Assembly (NCBI RefSeq): GCF_023612255.1
Contig: NZ_CP063231.1
Coordinates: forward strand, 3,206,001-3,270,000
Direction: 5' to 3'
DNA length: 64,000 bases
DNA from: Luteibacter flocculans
GTDB taxonomy: Bacteria; Pseudomonadota; Gammaproteobacteria; Xanthomonadales; Rhodanobacteraceae
Below are positions 17,271-22,006 of the stretch, piece by piece. A program made the position numbers and the translations under genes. How positions within the stretch are numbered: position 1 is the stretch's first letter; every line of letters starts with the position of its first letter. The notes below the pieces were generated by a model. The model was not told where the DNA came from. It saw nothing but the letters and a program-made list of their open reading frames with translations, and ran no database searches.

Positions 17271-18338
17271 TTAGACGGCCAGGATGTCGCCCAGCAAGGC
17301 CTGCGCCGTGATTTCGGGGCCTGCACCGGGCCCTTGGATCACCAGCGGTGTGGCGTGGTATCGCGTGGTGGTCAACGCGAACTGATTGTCGGTGCCCGAG
17401 AGCCGCGCGGCGGGGTGATCGGCGTCCACCTCGACGAGGCCCACGCGCGCCCGTCCGCGCTGGTTAAGTCGTGCGAGATAGCGCAACCGCTTGCCGTTGG
17501 CCTTGGCTTGCGCATGACGCGCGCGCAGCGGTTCGTCCAGTTCCTCGAGGCGATCGAGAAACGTCTGCGTGTCGACGCCACGAAGCGCCTCGGGTACCAG
17601 ACTCTCGACCTCCACCTCGTCGCTGCCGAGCGCAAAGCCGGCATGGCGGGCGATGATCAGCAGCTTGCGCGCCACGTCCTCGCCGGAAAGATCCGAACGC
17701 GGATCGGGCTCGGTGAAACCAAGCCGGCGCGCATCGCGCAGCAAGGCTGAAAACGGACGACTTCCGTCGTACTGGTTGAACAACCACGACAGCGAGCCGG
17801 AAAACACGCCTTCGAGCGTGAGCAGGCTGTCGCCGCACTGGCGCAGGCGTCGAAGCGTGGACAGCACCGGAAGGCCCGCGCCAACCGTGGCGGCGTCGCC
17901 GTAGACTGCGCCGTGGGCAAGCGCCTTCTGCAGGGCACGCCAACCGGCAAGCTGCCCCCCGGCCAGCGCCTTGTTCGCTGTGACGACGTGGTATCCCGCG
18001 GCGAGCCAGTCCGCATGACGCCCTGCTTCGATTGTGCAGGCCGTGGCATCCACGACGATCTTGTGGGTCGCACCGGCTGCGTCCAACGCCGCCAACAAGG
18101 GTCCGTTGTCGCGCCCTTCGTGGCTGCGGGCGAGGTGTTCGACGGCATCGCCGGGTAACGCACCATCGGGCAGCACATGCTGGCGCCTCGAATTGGCAGC
18201 GCCGACAAGGCGCAAGGAGGCTGCCGCGGGTGTTCCGAGCAACGTCAGCAAGGCACGTCCGACGACGCCCGTGCCCAAAAGGACAAGCGCGCTGCGCGGC
18301 GCGGTATCGACGCGCGGAGCGAAGGCCACCGCGCTCAT
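17271..18338 (-). CDS. hom: Homoserine dehydrogenase (monofunctional)
   Basis: 355 aa. Reduces aspartate semialdehyde to homoserine, the branch point to methionine and threonine. The Rossmann motif is VLLGTGVVGRALL near residues 20-32; the catalytic part has NKALAGGQ, GAGLPVLSTLRRL, GVFSGSLSWLF and TEPDPRSDLSGEDVARKLLI, all typical of the ThrA/MetL dehydrogenase half. There is no aspartokinase or C-terminal ACT domain, so threonine feedback may be absent. It starts within the metB stop (ATGA) and is the last gene of the metX-metB-hom operon. Confidence 0.93.
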   Translation of the reverse strand: MSAVAFAPRVDTAPRSALVLLGTGVVGRALLTLLGTPAAASLRLVGAANSRRQHVLPDGALPGDAVEHLARSHEGRDNGPLLAALDAAGATHKIVVDATACTIEAGRHADWLAAGYHVVTANKALAGGQLAGWRALQKALAHGAVYGDAATVGAGLPVLSTLRRLRQCGDSLLTLEGVFSGSLSWLFNQYDGSRPFSALLRDARRLGFTEPDPRSDLSGEDVARKLLIIARHAGFALGSDEVEVESLVPEALRGVDTQTFLDRLEELDEPLRARHAQAKANGKRLRYLARLNQRGRARVGLVEVDADHPAARLSGTDNQFALTTTRYHATPLVIQGPGAGPEITAQALLGDILAV

Positions 18339-19528
18339 GCGCCAACCAGACGCTGGGAAGCGACGGCGCCCGCGGCGGCAGCACGCGCCAGACCGGCTTC
18401 CAGATCGGCGAGCAGGTCGTCGCCGTCTTCGATGCCGATCGACAGACGCAGAAGATTGTCGGCGATACCGGCAACGCGACGGGCCTCCGGTGCCATGGCC
18501 GCATGCGTCATCGTGGCCGGATGGGCCACCAGGCTCTCTACGCCACCCAACGATTCGGCGAGCGAGAAGAAGCGCAGGCCATCGACGAAGGCCTCGATCG
18601 CGGGAATGCCACCGGCGATCTCGAAGCTCAGCATGGCGCCGAAGCCAAGTTGTTGGCGCTGCGCCAGCGCATGCCCCGGGTGCGACGCGAGACCGGGGTA
18701 GTACACCCGCTCCACCACCTCATGCGCATCCAGGCGTGCCGCAATACGCCGCGCATTTTCCTCGTGCGCGCGCAGTCGCACGGCCAGGGTACGTACGCCG
18801 CGCAACGTCAGAAAGCTGTCGAACGGCGAACCGGTCAGGCCATTGCAGTTGCCCCACCACTTCAACTGCTCGGCCACGACGGGGTCGGCGGCGATCACCG
18901 CGCCACCCACGACGTCGCTGTGTCCATTGATGTACTTCGTGGTCGAATGCACGACGATGTCGGCACCCAGTTTCAAAGGCTGCTGCAAAGCGGGCGAAAG
19001 AAAGGTGTTGTCCACGACGACGAGCGCGCCCACGGTATGCGCGGCCTGGGCCACATGGCGGACATCGGTGATACGCAGCAACGGATTCGACGGGGTCTCG
19101 ATCCATACCAGCGCGGGGCGGGCGGCGAGGCCATCCGCAAGCGCCGTCGGGTCGGTGAAATCGACGAAGCGGACCGCAAAGCGGCCCTTCTTCGCCCACG
19201 CGTCGAGCAGACGCCAGGTGCCGCCGTAGCAATCGTGCGCCGCCAGGACCAACGCGCCGGCCGGAACCAGTTCGAGAGCCAGGGCGACGGCAGACATGCC
19301 GCTGCCGGTGACGACGGTGCCCGCGCCCTCTTCCAGCTCGGTGAGCGCTTCCGCGAGCAGATCGCGCGTGGGATTGCCGCTGCGCGAGTAGTCGTAGGCG
19401 CGCTTGCGACCGAATCCCTCGAACGAGTAGTTGGTGGACAGGTGCAGGGGCGGCACCACGGCCCCATGCTGGGTATCGGATTCGATGCCGGCGCGCACGG
19501 CACGGGTACAAAGACGGGAATCGGTCAT
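18335..19528 (-). CDS. metB: Cystathionine gamma-synthase / O-succinylhomoserine sulfhydrylase family
   Basis: 397 aa PLP enzyme of the Cys/Met metabolism fold. It joins activated homoserine with cysteine (or sulfide). N-terminal YSRSGNPTRDLLAEAL, then VVVDNTFLSP, and the PLP lysine K198 in HSTTKYINGHSD. The C-terminal SLGGVESLVAHPATMTHA block is typical of MetB/MetC/MetZ. Sequence alone does not separate cystathionine synthase from direct sulfhydrylation. It lies two bases after metX and overlaps hom by four. Confidence 0.92.
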   Translation of the reverse strand: MTDSRLCTRAVRAGIESDTQHGAVVPPLHLSTNYSFEGFGRKRAYDYSRSGNPTRDLLAEALTELEEGAGTVVTGSGMSAVALALELVPAGALVLAAHDCYGGTWRLLDAWAKKGRFAVRFVDFTDPTALADGLAARPALVWIETPSNPLLRITDVRHVAQAAHTVGALVVVDNTFLSPALQQPLKLGADIVVHSTTKYINGHSDVVGGAVIAADPVVAEQLKWWGNCNGLTGSPFDSFLTLRGVRTLAVRLRAHEENARRIAARLDAHEVVERVYYPGLASHPGHALAQRQQLGFGAMLSFEIAGGIPAIEAFVDGLRFFSLAESLGGVESLVAHPATMTHAAMAPEARRVAGIADNLLRLSIGIEDGDDLLADLEAGLARAAAAGAVASQRLVGA

Positions 19529-19530
19529 GG

Positions 19531-20568
19531 TCAGCGGTCTCCGCGACAGTCGTTGAGTGCGTGACGCAGCACGGGAGCGAGCTGCACGGTCTCTTTCAGA
19601 AAGGCATCGTGGCCGTAAGGCGAATCGACGACCTCAAGCGTCGCGGTGCCACCGAGGCGGCGCTGCAGTTCGCACAGGTCGGCAAGCGGCACGAGGCGGT
19701 CGGAAGGAAAGCCGACCAGGGTGGTCGTTGCGTGGATGCGTTCGGGTGCGATGTCGTGCAGATCGATCGATTCCGACAGTGCGAGGAATCGCGACGCATC
19801 GAAGCGCTCGACGAAACGTCGGCCGGCGTGCTCCAGGTAATCCTCCACAGGGAAGTGGAAGCGTCCCTCGCGCAGCTCCGGGCCGGCGGCGAAGCGGCGG
19901 GAGAACTCCTCGCTGCCGCGATAGGTGGTCATGGCCAGTTGCCGTGCCAGCGCGAGCGCTTCGTCCGTGCATCCCGTGGCAAGACCCAGCCGCACGATGC
20001 CGCGCTGTACCGAGCGCTGCGCCGTGGCGAGCGGATGCGGACGATGGGCGCCGGCCAGCAGCACCAGTGACTTCACCTTGTCGGCATGGTTCGCCGCGAA
20101 GGCCAGCCCGACCATGGCGCCGTAGGAACTGCCGACGAACGCCTGCACGCGACCGATGCCGAGTTCGTCCACCAGTGCCGCAAGCGCCGCGGCCTGATCT
20201 TCGCTCGAGACCGAGGGCACGCCTTCGAGTTCCGCGGGCACGATCCAGTCGATCGAGAGCACGCGGCATTCCAAAAGGTCGATGGCCGCACCCTGCCCCA
20301 CCAGATCCTGCCACCATCCTCCGACGCGCTCACGGCCAGCGCAGACGTCGCGATCGGCCGATATGCCACCCTGGACGATGACCGTCGGGGCATGTGGCGC
20401 GCCGCACCACAGATAGCGAATGTCGACCTCGACCGGACCGCTGCCGTACTTCGGCGTAAAGACGACGCGGCGCGTACCGCGGTGTTCGGTGAGATCGGCC
20501 GCGCGTCGCGCCGCAGCGGGGGCAGCCACTTCAGGGAGGGAGATCACGGTAAGGGGCTCTGCTGACAT
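19531..20568 (-). CDS. metX: Homoserine O-acyltransferase MetX
   Basis: 345 aa from the ATG at 20568; a further in-frame ATG at 20670 falls inside the riboswitch and is rejected. Alpha/beta-hydrolase fold acyltransferase that activates homoserine. Nucleophile S148 in VGSSYGAMVG, acidic residue in GFPSDRLVP and C-terminal histidine in SPYGHDAFLKE. The short form and GSSYGA motif resemble the Xanthomonas-type enzymes reported to use succinyl-CoA; the acyl donor is an inference. First gene of the metX-metB-hom operon, with the SAM riboswitch in its leader. Confidence 0.92.
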   Translation of the reverse strand: MSAEPLTVISLPEVAAPAAARRAADLTEHRGTRRVVFTPKYGSGPVEVDIRYLWCGAPHAPTVIVQGGISADRDVCAGRERVGGWWQDLVGQGAAIDLLECRVLSIDWIVPAELEGVPSVSSEDQAAALAALVDELGIGRVQAFVGSSYGAMVGLAFAANHADKVKSLVLLAGAHRPHPLATAQRSVQRGIVRLGLATGCTDEALALARQLAMTTYRGSEEFSRRFAAGPELREGRFHFPVEDYLEHAGRRFVERFDASRFLALSESIDLHDIAPERIHATTTLVGFPSDRLVPLADLCELQRRLGGTATLEVVDSPYGHDAFLKETVQLAPVLRHALNDCRGDR

Positions 20569-20665
20569 GTCCGGAGGTTCCTGCGTTCGGGATCGAGGCC
20601 CCCGCGGATACCGGCGTCGGATTGTCTGCGCCACGGGTACGCCAAAGCGCGCCCAGAACGGACAT

Positions 20666-20774
20666 CCCATCTATCGGCTGGCGTGAAACACGCCCCGCAG
20701 GAGTTGGCACCGTCGCGGAAATCCGCAGGTTGCCCCGGCTTCAAAGGGCCTGTCCCTCAGCCGGTCTCGATGAG
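20666..20774 (-). promoter_or_regulatory. SAM-I (S-box) riboswitch upstream of metX
   Basis: On the minus strand the conserved blocks occur in order: CTCATCGAGA, GAGGGAC, GGCCC, TGAAGCC, GGCAACC, GGTGCCAACTCCTGC, then a hairpin GGCGTGTTTCACGCC (P4) and GATAGATGGG. P1 can form between CTCATC (20769-20774) and GATGGG (20666-20671). These are the hallmark SAM-I core sequences, so binding of S-adenosylmethionine should lower metX-metB-hom expression. In the 98-base leader that follows, ATGTCCG (20659-20665) can pair with CGGACAT, which covers the metX start codon, suggesting translational control. No U-run terminator is visible. Confidence 0.92.
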
Positions 20775-20782
20775 TGAAACCG

Positions 20783-20811
20783 ACGATACGCTCGCCAAAC
20801 CATGCTGTCAA
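20783..20811 (-). promoter_or_regulatory. Sigma-70 promoter of metX-metB-hom
   Basis: On the minus strand a perfect -35 TTGACA (20806-20811), a 17-base spacer and a -10 TATCGT (20783-20788). Transcription would start near 20776, at the 5' edge of the riboswitch. Confidence 0.75.
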
Positions 20812-20812
20812 C

Positions 20813-20844
20813 AGACGTTTAGACGTCCAGATGTCCAGACGTCC
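20813..20844. promoter_or_regulatory. Four tandem MetJ-type met boxes
   Basis: Plus strand reads AGACGTTT, AGACGTCC, AGATGTCC, AGACGTCC without gaps, each close to the enterobacterial MetJ half-operator AGACGTCT. The array abuts the -35 box of the metX promoter and also lies upstream of the divergent cysteine synthase gene. MetJ binds tandem 8-base boxes cooperatively with SAM as co-repressor. That a MetJ-like protein exists in this organism is inferred; none is in the window. Confidence 0.75.
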
Positions 20845-20977
20845 TATCGCAATGCCACTGCTTGGATTACCGCCCATCGCTTGGCGCGCATGGCTTCCAG
20901 CGCCAATTCATGCGCCACGACAGCGCACATATCGAGACATCAGCCACGATCTCGATCACCCGCGGACTTCTGCGGGT

Positions 20978-20983
20978 TACGAT
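20978..20983 (+). promoter_or_regulatory. Possible -10 box with leaderless start for cysteine synthase
   Basis: TACGAT stands six bases before the ATG at 20990 and no Shine-Dalgarno is seen, so transcription may begin at the start codon. The -35 region is poor. Spacing inference only. Confidence 0.3.
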
Positions 20984-20989
20984 CCACCC

Positions 20990-22006
20990 ATGACTATCCA
21001 TGCCAACTTCGCGGCCGCCATCGGCCATACGCCGCTCATACGCCTTCGCAACGCCTCCGAAGCCACGGGCTGCGAGATCCTCGCCAAGGCCGAATTCCTC
21101 AATCCCGGCGGTTCCGTGAAGGACCGCACCGCCCTTGGCCTGGTCGACGACGCCGAGCGTCGCGGACTCCTCCGCGCCGGAGGCACCGTGGTCGAAGGCA
21201 CCGCGGGCAACACAGGCATCGGGCTGGCCCTGCTGGGCGCCAGCCGCGGGTATCGCACCGTGATCGTCATGCCCGAGACGCAGAGCCGCGAGAAGATCGA
21301 CGCCTTGCGCGTCACGGGTGCCGAGGTGCGCCTCGTGCCCGCCGCACCATACAAGGACCCCGGCCACTACGCGCACGTCGCCCGCGCGTTGGCCGAGGCA
21401 TTGAACGCCCGCGATCCGGGCAGCGCCTGGTTCGCCAACCAGTTCGACAACACCGCCAACCGGGACTGGCACGAGGTCCATACCGGCGCCGAGATCTGGG
21501 CCCAGACGGACGGCCGCATCGATGGCTTCGTCTGTGCCGCAGGTACGGGAGGCACGCTGGCCGGCGTCGGTCGCGCCTTAAAGGCACGGCGTAGCGACAT
21601 TCGCATCGCCCTGGCAGACCCTTGTGGCTCGGCCCTCGCCCATTTCGTTACCCATGGCGAACTGCACGCGGAAGGGAACTCGATCAGCGAGGGCATCGGC
21701 AGCAGTCGGATCACGGCCAATTTCGCCGATGCGCCCGTGGACCTGGCCTGGTCCATCCCCGACGACGAATCGCTGCCCCTGGTCCACGACCTGCTGCATG
21801 CGGAAGGCTATTGCGTGGGCGGCTCCAGCGGCGTCAACGTGGCCGGGGCGATCCGCCTGGCGCGGGAACTGGGCCCCGGCCACACCGTCGTCACGGTGCT
21901 GTGCGACGGCGGCATGCGCTATCAGGGCAAGCTGTTCAATCCAGCGTTCCTGCGCGGGAAAGGCCTGCCAGTGCCCGACTGGCTGGACGCCGCGTTTCCC
22001 GGCTAG
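20990..22006 (+). CDS. Cysteine synthase (O-acetylserine sulfhydrylase family)
   Basis: 338 aa from the ATG at 20990; longer in-frame starts would run into the met-box array and riboswitch region. PLP fold-type II enzyme that makes cysteine from O-acetylserine and sulfide. PLP lysine K44 in EFLNPGGSVKDRTA, phosphate-binding GTAGNTGIGLA near 73-83, QFDNTANRDWH, and GTGGTLAGVGRALK. A long C-terminal segment (YQGKLFNPAFLRGKGLPVPDWL) is found in the cysteine synthase A form of xanthomonads. Divergent from metX, whose operon needs cysteine, so shared control by the met-box array is plausible. Confidence 0.9.
   Translation: MTIHANFAAAIGHTPLIRLRNASEATGCEILAKAEFLNPGGSVKDRTALGLVDDAERRGLLRAGGTVVEGTAGNTGIGLALLGASRGYRTVIVMPETQSREKIDALRVTGAEVRLVPAAPYKDPGHYAHVARALAEALNARDPGSAWFANQFDNTANRDWHEVHTGAEIWAQTDGRIDGFVCAAGTGGTLAGVGRALKARRSDIRIALADPCGSALAHFVTHGELHAEGNSISEGIGSSRITANFADAPVDLAWSIPDDESLPLVHDLLHAEGYCVGGSSGVNVAGAIRLARELGPGHTVVTVLCDGGMRYQGKLFNPAFLRGKGLPVPDWLDAAFPG

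Follow-up and report, generated by a model that had tools for sequence, protein, structure and literature searches.

The closest described systems are cited here from portions of the respective papers, and the statements drawn from them are limited to those portions. In Yersinia, functional MetJ metboxes lie at the start of the btuB transcript, which carries a cobalamin riboswitch, and the same 2011 paper infers, conditionally and in the portion cited, that riboswitch control extends to none of the other genes it studied (PMC3228920). The Luteibacter met operon described below resembles btuB in that MetJ boxes are found ahead of a riboswitch transcript. However, two different signals act on btuB, whereas both layers of the Luteibacter operon would read SAM. 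The E. coli mntP gene, with MntR and a manganese riboswitch, is alike in that one ligand is read by a DNA-binding regulator and a translational riboswitch; it differs in its metal ligand and in being activated rather than repressed (PMC11647493).

The Xanthomonas campestris met operon shares with that of Luteibacter the gene order of homoserine succinyltransferase, metB and hom together with a SAM-I leader (PMC6230763, PMC7270179), and its riboswitch acts mainly on translation (PMC7270179, PMC6230763). It is set apart by a metJ gene reported missing and by a promoter unresponsive to methionine (PMC6230763); contrary to this, a passing remark in PMC7270179 has the E. coli system apparently conserved in Xanthomonas. 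A comparative study predicted a SamR regulon of Xanthomonadales with a 24-bp palindrome and target genes including metX2, metB and hom, and it described MetJ in six gammaproteobacterial groups, with none in the 4 Xanthomonadales genomes studied (PMC4239095). SAM-I was not among the riboswitches of its scan, as far as the cited portion goes, and in Rhodanobacteraceae we find MetJ octamers at the place of the palindrome.

Here we analyse a 64,000-nucleotide stretch of Luteibacter flocculans DNA (the window) in which a metX-metB-hom operon appears to carry two stacked SAM brakes, MetJ and a SAM-I riboswitch, a reading to which we assign a probability of about 0.8. MetJ and SAM-I are each known; their combination on one operon is new as judged within the open-licence full-text literature, in which neither this pairing, nor MetJ in Rhodanobacteraceae, nor a tailed MetJ was found. 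A protein sensor and an RNA sensor for one metabolite would thereby share a promoter across a whole family of soil bacteria, and why cells would read SAM twice becomes testable. The results also extend the range of MetJ past the groups given in the cited portion of the comparative study (PMC4239095), suggest an operator exchange above a retained riboswitch, and reveal a histone-like tail on a met repressor.

Organization of the met operon leader

On the window's minus strand, four octamers, a promoter and a SAM-I aptamer precede the metX-metB-hom operon. Its genes encode a metX-type homoserine O-succinyltransferase (19531-20568; NF006449, 371.1 bits against a cut-off of 296), a metB-type cystathionine gamma-synthase / O-succinylhomoserine thiol-lyase (18335-19528; TIGR02080, 597.1 bits against a cut-off of 504.55) and the homoserine dehydrogenase Hom (17271-18338; PF00742, 151.6 bits, with NCBIfam matches under their cut-offs). 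The closest named relatives of the metX gene come from Luteibacter (at most 88% identity), followed by Dyella and Rhodanobacter among others.

The four MetJ-type octamers are gapless tandem copies that occupy 20813-20844 in plus-strand coordinates and read GGACGTCT GGACATCT GGACGTCT AAACGTCT on the minus strand. One base downstream lies a -35 box, TTGACA (20806-20811), and a spacer of 17 separates it from the -10 box TATCGT (20783-20788), which ends 6 bases ahead of the aptamer. In an initial annotation made from the letters of the window, four gapless octamers directly upstream of a -35 box, a TTGACA-17-TATCGT promoter and a SAM-I riboswitch on the minus strand had been proposed. The octamers proved correct in letters and positions. 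The promoter was borne out as the only sigma-70-like site within 20500-20960 (mean 0.0, sd 0.2 in shuffles), and a covariance-model search for RF00162 returned a full-length match (model positions 1-108 of 108) over 20664-20776, scoring 78.4 bits where the gathering score is 44.4. The locus thus has what characterizes a MetJ operator, namely at least two gapless octamers near AGACGTCT at the promoter of a met gene.

The array scores 27/32 against four copies of the consensus AGACGTCT. The best non-overlapping place in the window scores 19/32, the best four-octamer scores in ten 64-kb sequences from a first-order Markov model range from 18 to 20, and 200 shuffles of the 200-base upstream region of this operon all stay below 27. 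A pair alone would fall short of genome-wide significance, and the regulon list derived from 16-base matches in the own genome is mostly noise. It might be argued that the octamers are an artefact of chance or of repeats and that MetJ regulates other genes, for the motif is short and degenerate, and a pair (16 bases, 3 mismatches) gives 13 matches in the own genome versus 12 for a reversed control. The four-copy score and the conservation of the array are, however, far beyond shuffles, and a chance origin was rejected; the probability left to this reading is negligible.

Conservation of the octamer array

MetJ was found in all 117 Rhodanobacteraceae genomes and SAM-I in 113 of them (the exceptions being G248, G260, G270 and G275), under stricter filters of the SAM-I surveys by which weak matches may be lost. 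Together with one leader from the order draw (G198), the 113 from the family draw make up a set of 114 family leaders. Whether the octamers are kept in related species had been raised along with the initial annotation, and the check gave a clear answer: an octamer pair of at least 12/16 stands beside a TTGAY -35 box in 114/114 leaders, at no more than 9 bases from it. The pair scores at least 13/16 in 113 leaders and 12/16 in one; among 5,700 shuffles, 36 reach a score of 12 and 6 a score of 13. The gap between pair and TTGAY is 1 base in 90 leaders, -1 in 10, 9 in 10, 6 in 3 and -9 in 1. Three octamers of at least 17/24 are found beside TTGAY in 107 of the 114 leaders (8 of 11,400 shuffles reach 17), the third copy being weaker in the other 7.

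Similar results were obtained with 80 named loci, a set that overlaps with the unnamed family draw: the array lies beside TTGAC in 79, the miss being L254. A strict three-octamer pattern matches in 100 of the 117 family genomes and not in the remaining 17, with 3 matches in all for its reversed control (G184, G226 and G277). All 23 genomes of the own genus match, and none does so with the reversed control. As the co-occurrence of MetJ and the array follows one lineage, it would count phylogenetically as about one event.

The idea that MetJ and SAM-I coincide merely because both are common was rejected. Of 369 genomes drawn from the class, 5 have MetJ and 10 have SAM-I; the 2 with both belong to the Rhodanobacteraceae. 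An order draw of 200 genomes contains MetJ in 53, SAM-I in 127 and both in 35, these being 34 Rhodanobacteraceae and G113, which has two SAM-I leaders, neither with an octamer array.

The preserved distance between octamers and promoter also bears on a divergent cysK-type cysteine synthase gene (20990-22006, plus strand; NF007989, 518.2 bits against a cut-off of 387, in a scan that covered 20960-22006). The gene lies on the opposite strand with its start about 146 bases away from the array, in a common intergenic region, and could be a second target. That the array serves mainly cysK and not the met operon would fit this proximity, as well as the cysK-like genes seen by eye beside the array in L179, L181 and L359. 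By contrast, the distance of the octamers to the met -35 box is kept in the 114 leaders, and in leader L172 (genus g5) a different ORF lies in the divergent position. We therefore consider it very unlikely that cysK is the main target.

A MetJ protein with a histone-like tail

The genome contains one MetJ gene, located about 37 kb past the end of the window (G000:C1:3306905-3307165, minus strand). The search for it, suggested together with the initial annotation, was thus successful, with matches above curated cut-offs to the NCBIfam equivalog NF003622 (136 bits, cut-off 110) and to Pfam PF01340 (129.8 bits, cut-off 25). In an alignment to E. coli MetJ (1cma), 52 of 69 core residues are identical (57 of 86 when all aligned residues are counted), and K23, T25, E39, R42, E59 and F65 are kept. 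We take K23 and T25 to belong to the DNA-contacting beta-strand of MetJ, and E39 and R42 of the E. coli protein are presumably SAM contacts. The residues aligned with the latter two are L and H/Y/E in 11 of 34 family MetJs (L136-L146, from genera g7, g9 and g11, none of them Luteibacter), and effector recognition may differ in the MetJs of these genera.

The tail is the least expected part of the system. In place of an E. coli-like C-terminal region, which the curated MetJ models do not demand, the protein has a Lys/Ala-rich extension and is hence a variant MetJ. Lys+Arg make up 40% and Ala 32% of its C-terminal 118 residues, which include no acidic ones and match histone-H1-like models at 29.7 bits (cut-off 80) and 27.8 bits (cut-off 40), both below cut-off. 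The bacterial proteins AlgP and PhaF also have a Lys/Ala-rich, histone-H1-like region, which is not known to be attached to a sequence-specific met repressor in either. Such a tail, 41-183 residues long, was found in all 34 Rhodanobacteraceae genomes read, and the MetJ open frame extends to at least 126 aa in 114 of the 117 family genomes; the three shorter frames (G230, G275 and G279) start no more than 6 bases from a contig end. By comparison, 13 MetJs of order family f9 and 6 of f12 have no tail. One tailed MetJ locus outside the window lies at L001:1180-1767 (minus strand).

The tail probably adds non-specific DNA affinity. A bolder proposal is that the Rhodanobacteraceae MetJ has become part specific repressor and part nucleoid protein. 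Its tail would make local DNA compaction depend on the SAM level, both at the met promoter and at any other promoter that has an array, leaving the riboswitch to trim the remaining transcripts; we regard this proposal as doubtful. The tail can also be read differently, in that the riboswitch alone would respond to SAM and the array would be a constitutive or architectural site for MetJ acting as a nucleoid-like protein. The varied residues at the SAM contacts in 11 of 34 family MetJs are in line with such a role, as is the promoter of X. campestris that does not respond to methionine (PMC6230763, cited portion). However, X. campestris reportedly has no metJ, according to the same portion of PMC6230763, and hence provides no test of a MetJ operator. 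Moreover, the MetJ of the window genome retains all six residues named above, and in 90 of the 114 leaders the octamer pair stops 1 base short of TTGAY, a placement to be expected of a repressor site. An array without SAM-dependent function is thus unlikely.

Expression platform and the two-brake reading

The expression platform of the window leader extends from the aptamer to the start codon (20569-20663, minus strand). A transcription terminator was looked for in this leader and not found, and a transcription-terminating riboswitch was rejected on that ground. Folding predicts the Shine-Dalgarno region to be partly paired, with a likelihood of 0.3-0.98 per base, and the platform probably acts on translation. 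Among 78 of 80 leaders (L191 and L253, with no recognised start, were left out), 53 have a Shine-Dalgarno-blocking duplex at a level reached by no more than 5 of 100 shuffles, and the segment that pairs with the Shine-Dalgarno region lies mostly 19-33 bases upstream of that region. The 10 testable leaders titled Luteibacter (L183-L192 and L261, less L191) are divided at this level, 4 passing and 6 failing. A translational switch is likely because of the missing terminator, the Shine-Dalgarno pairing and the mainly translational action of SAM-I in X. campestris (PMC7270179, cited portion), and the evidence for it is weaker in Luteibacter than in Dyella and Rhodanobacter.

With two stacked brakes, SAM-bound MetJ dimers would occupy two to four of the octamers that extend up to the -35 box, and would obstruct RNA polymerase. 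Transcripts that escape would begin almost at once with the SAM-I aptamer, on which SAM would favour downstream folding in which the ribosome-binding site is masked, and translation of metX would stop. SAM-dependent binding, repression and translational switching are what the sequence leads us to expect, and the combined effect would be tighter than that of either brake alone. The proposal of the initial annotation that one operon reads SAM at both levels thus gains support, at the level of sequence, from the array, the SAM-I match, the MetJ gene and their conservation.

SAM-I leaders outside the family

The DNA layer of SAM-I leaders differs outside the Rhodanobacteraceae. We examined 37 such leaders from 36 of the 93 non-family SAM-I genomes of the order draw (Lysobacterales), chosen by hand to spread over families, and the octamer array was present in none of them. 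Their best four-octamer scores range from 13 to 18 out of 32, and the top one (G098) is equalled by 1.5% of its own shuffles. At the place of the array, 19 of the 37 leaders carry a 24-bp SamR-like palindrome with up to 3 mismatches, a count that is partly circular in that the pattern was derived from the same leaders. For each of these 19 leaders, none of 100 shuffles is as good. The palindrome has a GAT end and runs into the -35 box or to within 2 bases of it. In length and target genes it agrees with the description of SamR in the cited portion of PMC4239095.

The palindrome is distributed unevenly: it is present in 14 of 14 leaders of family f2, which is probably the Xanthomonadaceae, and absent from all 114 Rhodanobacteraceae leaders and from the 16 leaders of f8, f9 and f10. 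Since the family array stands at the place of the SamR-like palindrome of relatives (f2 to f6), the DNA operator was probably exchanged above a riboswitch that was kept. Elsewhere in the genome, the palindrome occurs at no more than 2 mismatches in 8 of 8 own-genus genomes of the order draw (reversed control, 2 of 8), and a SamR-type regulator may persist in this genus. In genus g37 of family f9, MetJ (12 genomes) and SAM-I (G071, G088, G098 and G162) do not overlap in the order draw and may replace each other.

Arrays at metJ and other genes

An octamer array is also found upstream of metJ itself in 22 of 34 family genomes, at a distance of about 160-190 bases and at scores equalled by no more than 5 of 200 shuffles. 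The MetJ protein is therefore tied to the octamer motif. In Luteibacter, none of 8 genomes has an array upstream of metJ. In family f12, the MetJ encoded by L149 has about 80 aa and no tail, and its gene is preceded by a strong array (22/24) at a distance of about 200 bases.

Further array targets were named by eye from ORF lists that contain spurious frames. In the own genus, arrays lie upstream of Oar-type TonB-dependent receptor-like genes at six loci (L061, L345, L361, L362, L365 and L366, near 1501). In L154 and L162, also near 1501, they adjoin a CysB-like LysR gene; the array of L162 additionally has a cysteine-synthase gene beside it, in divergent orientation.
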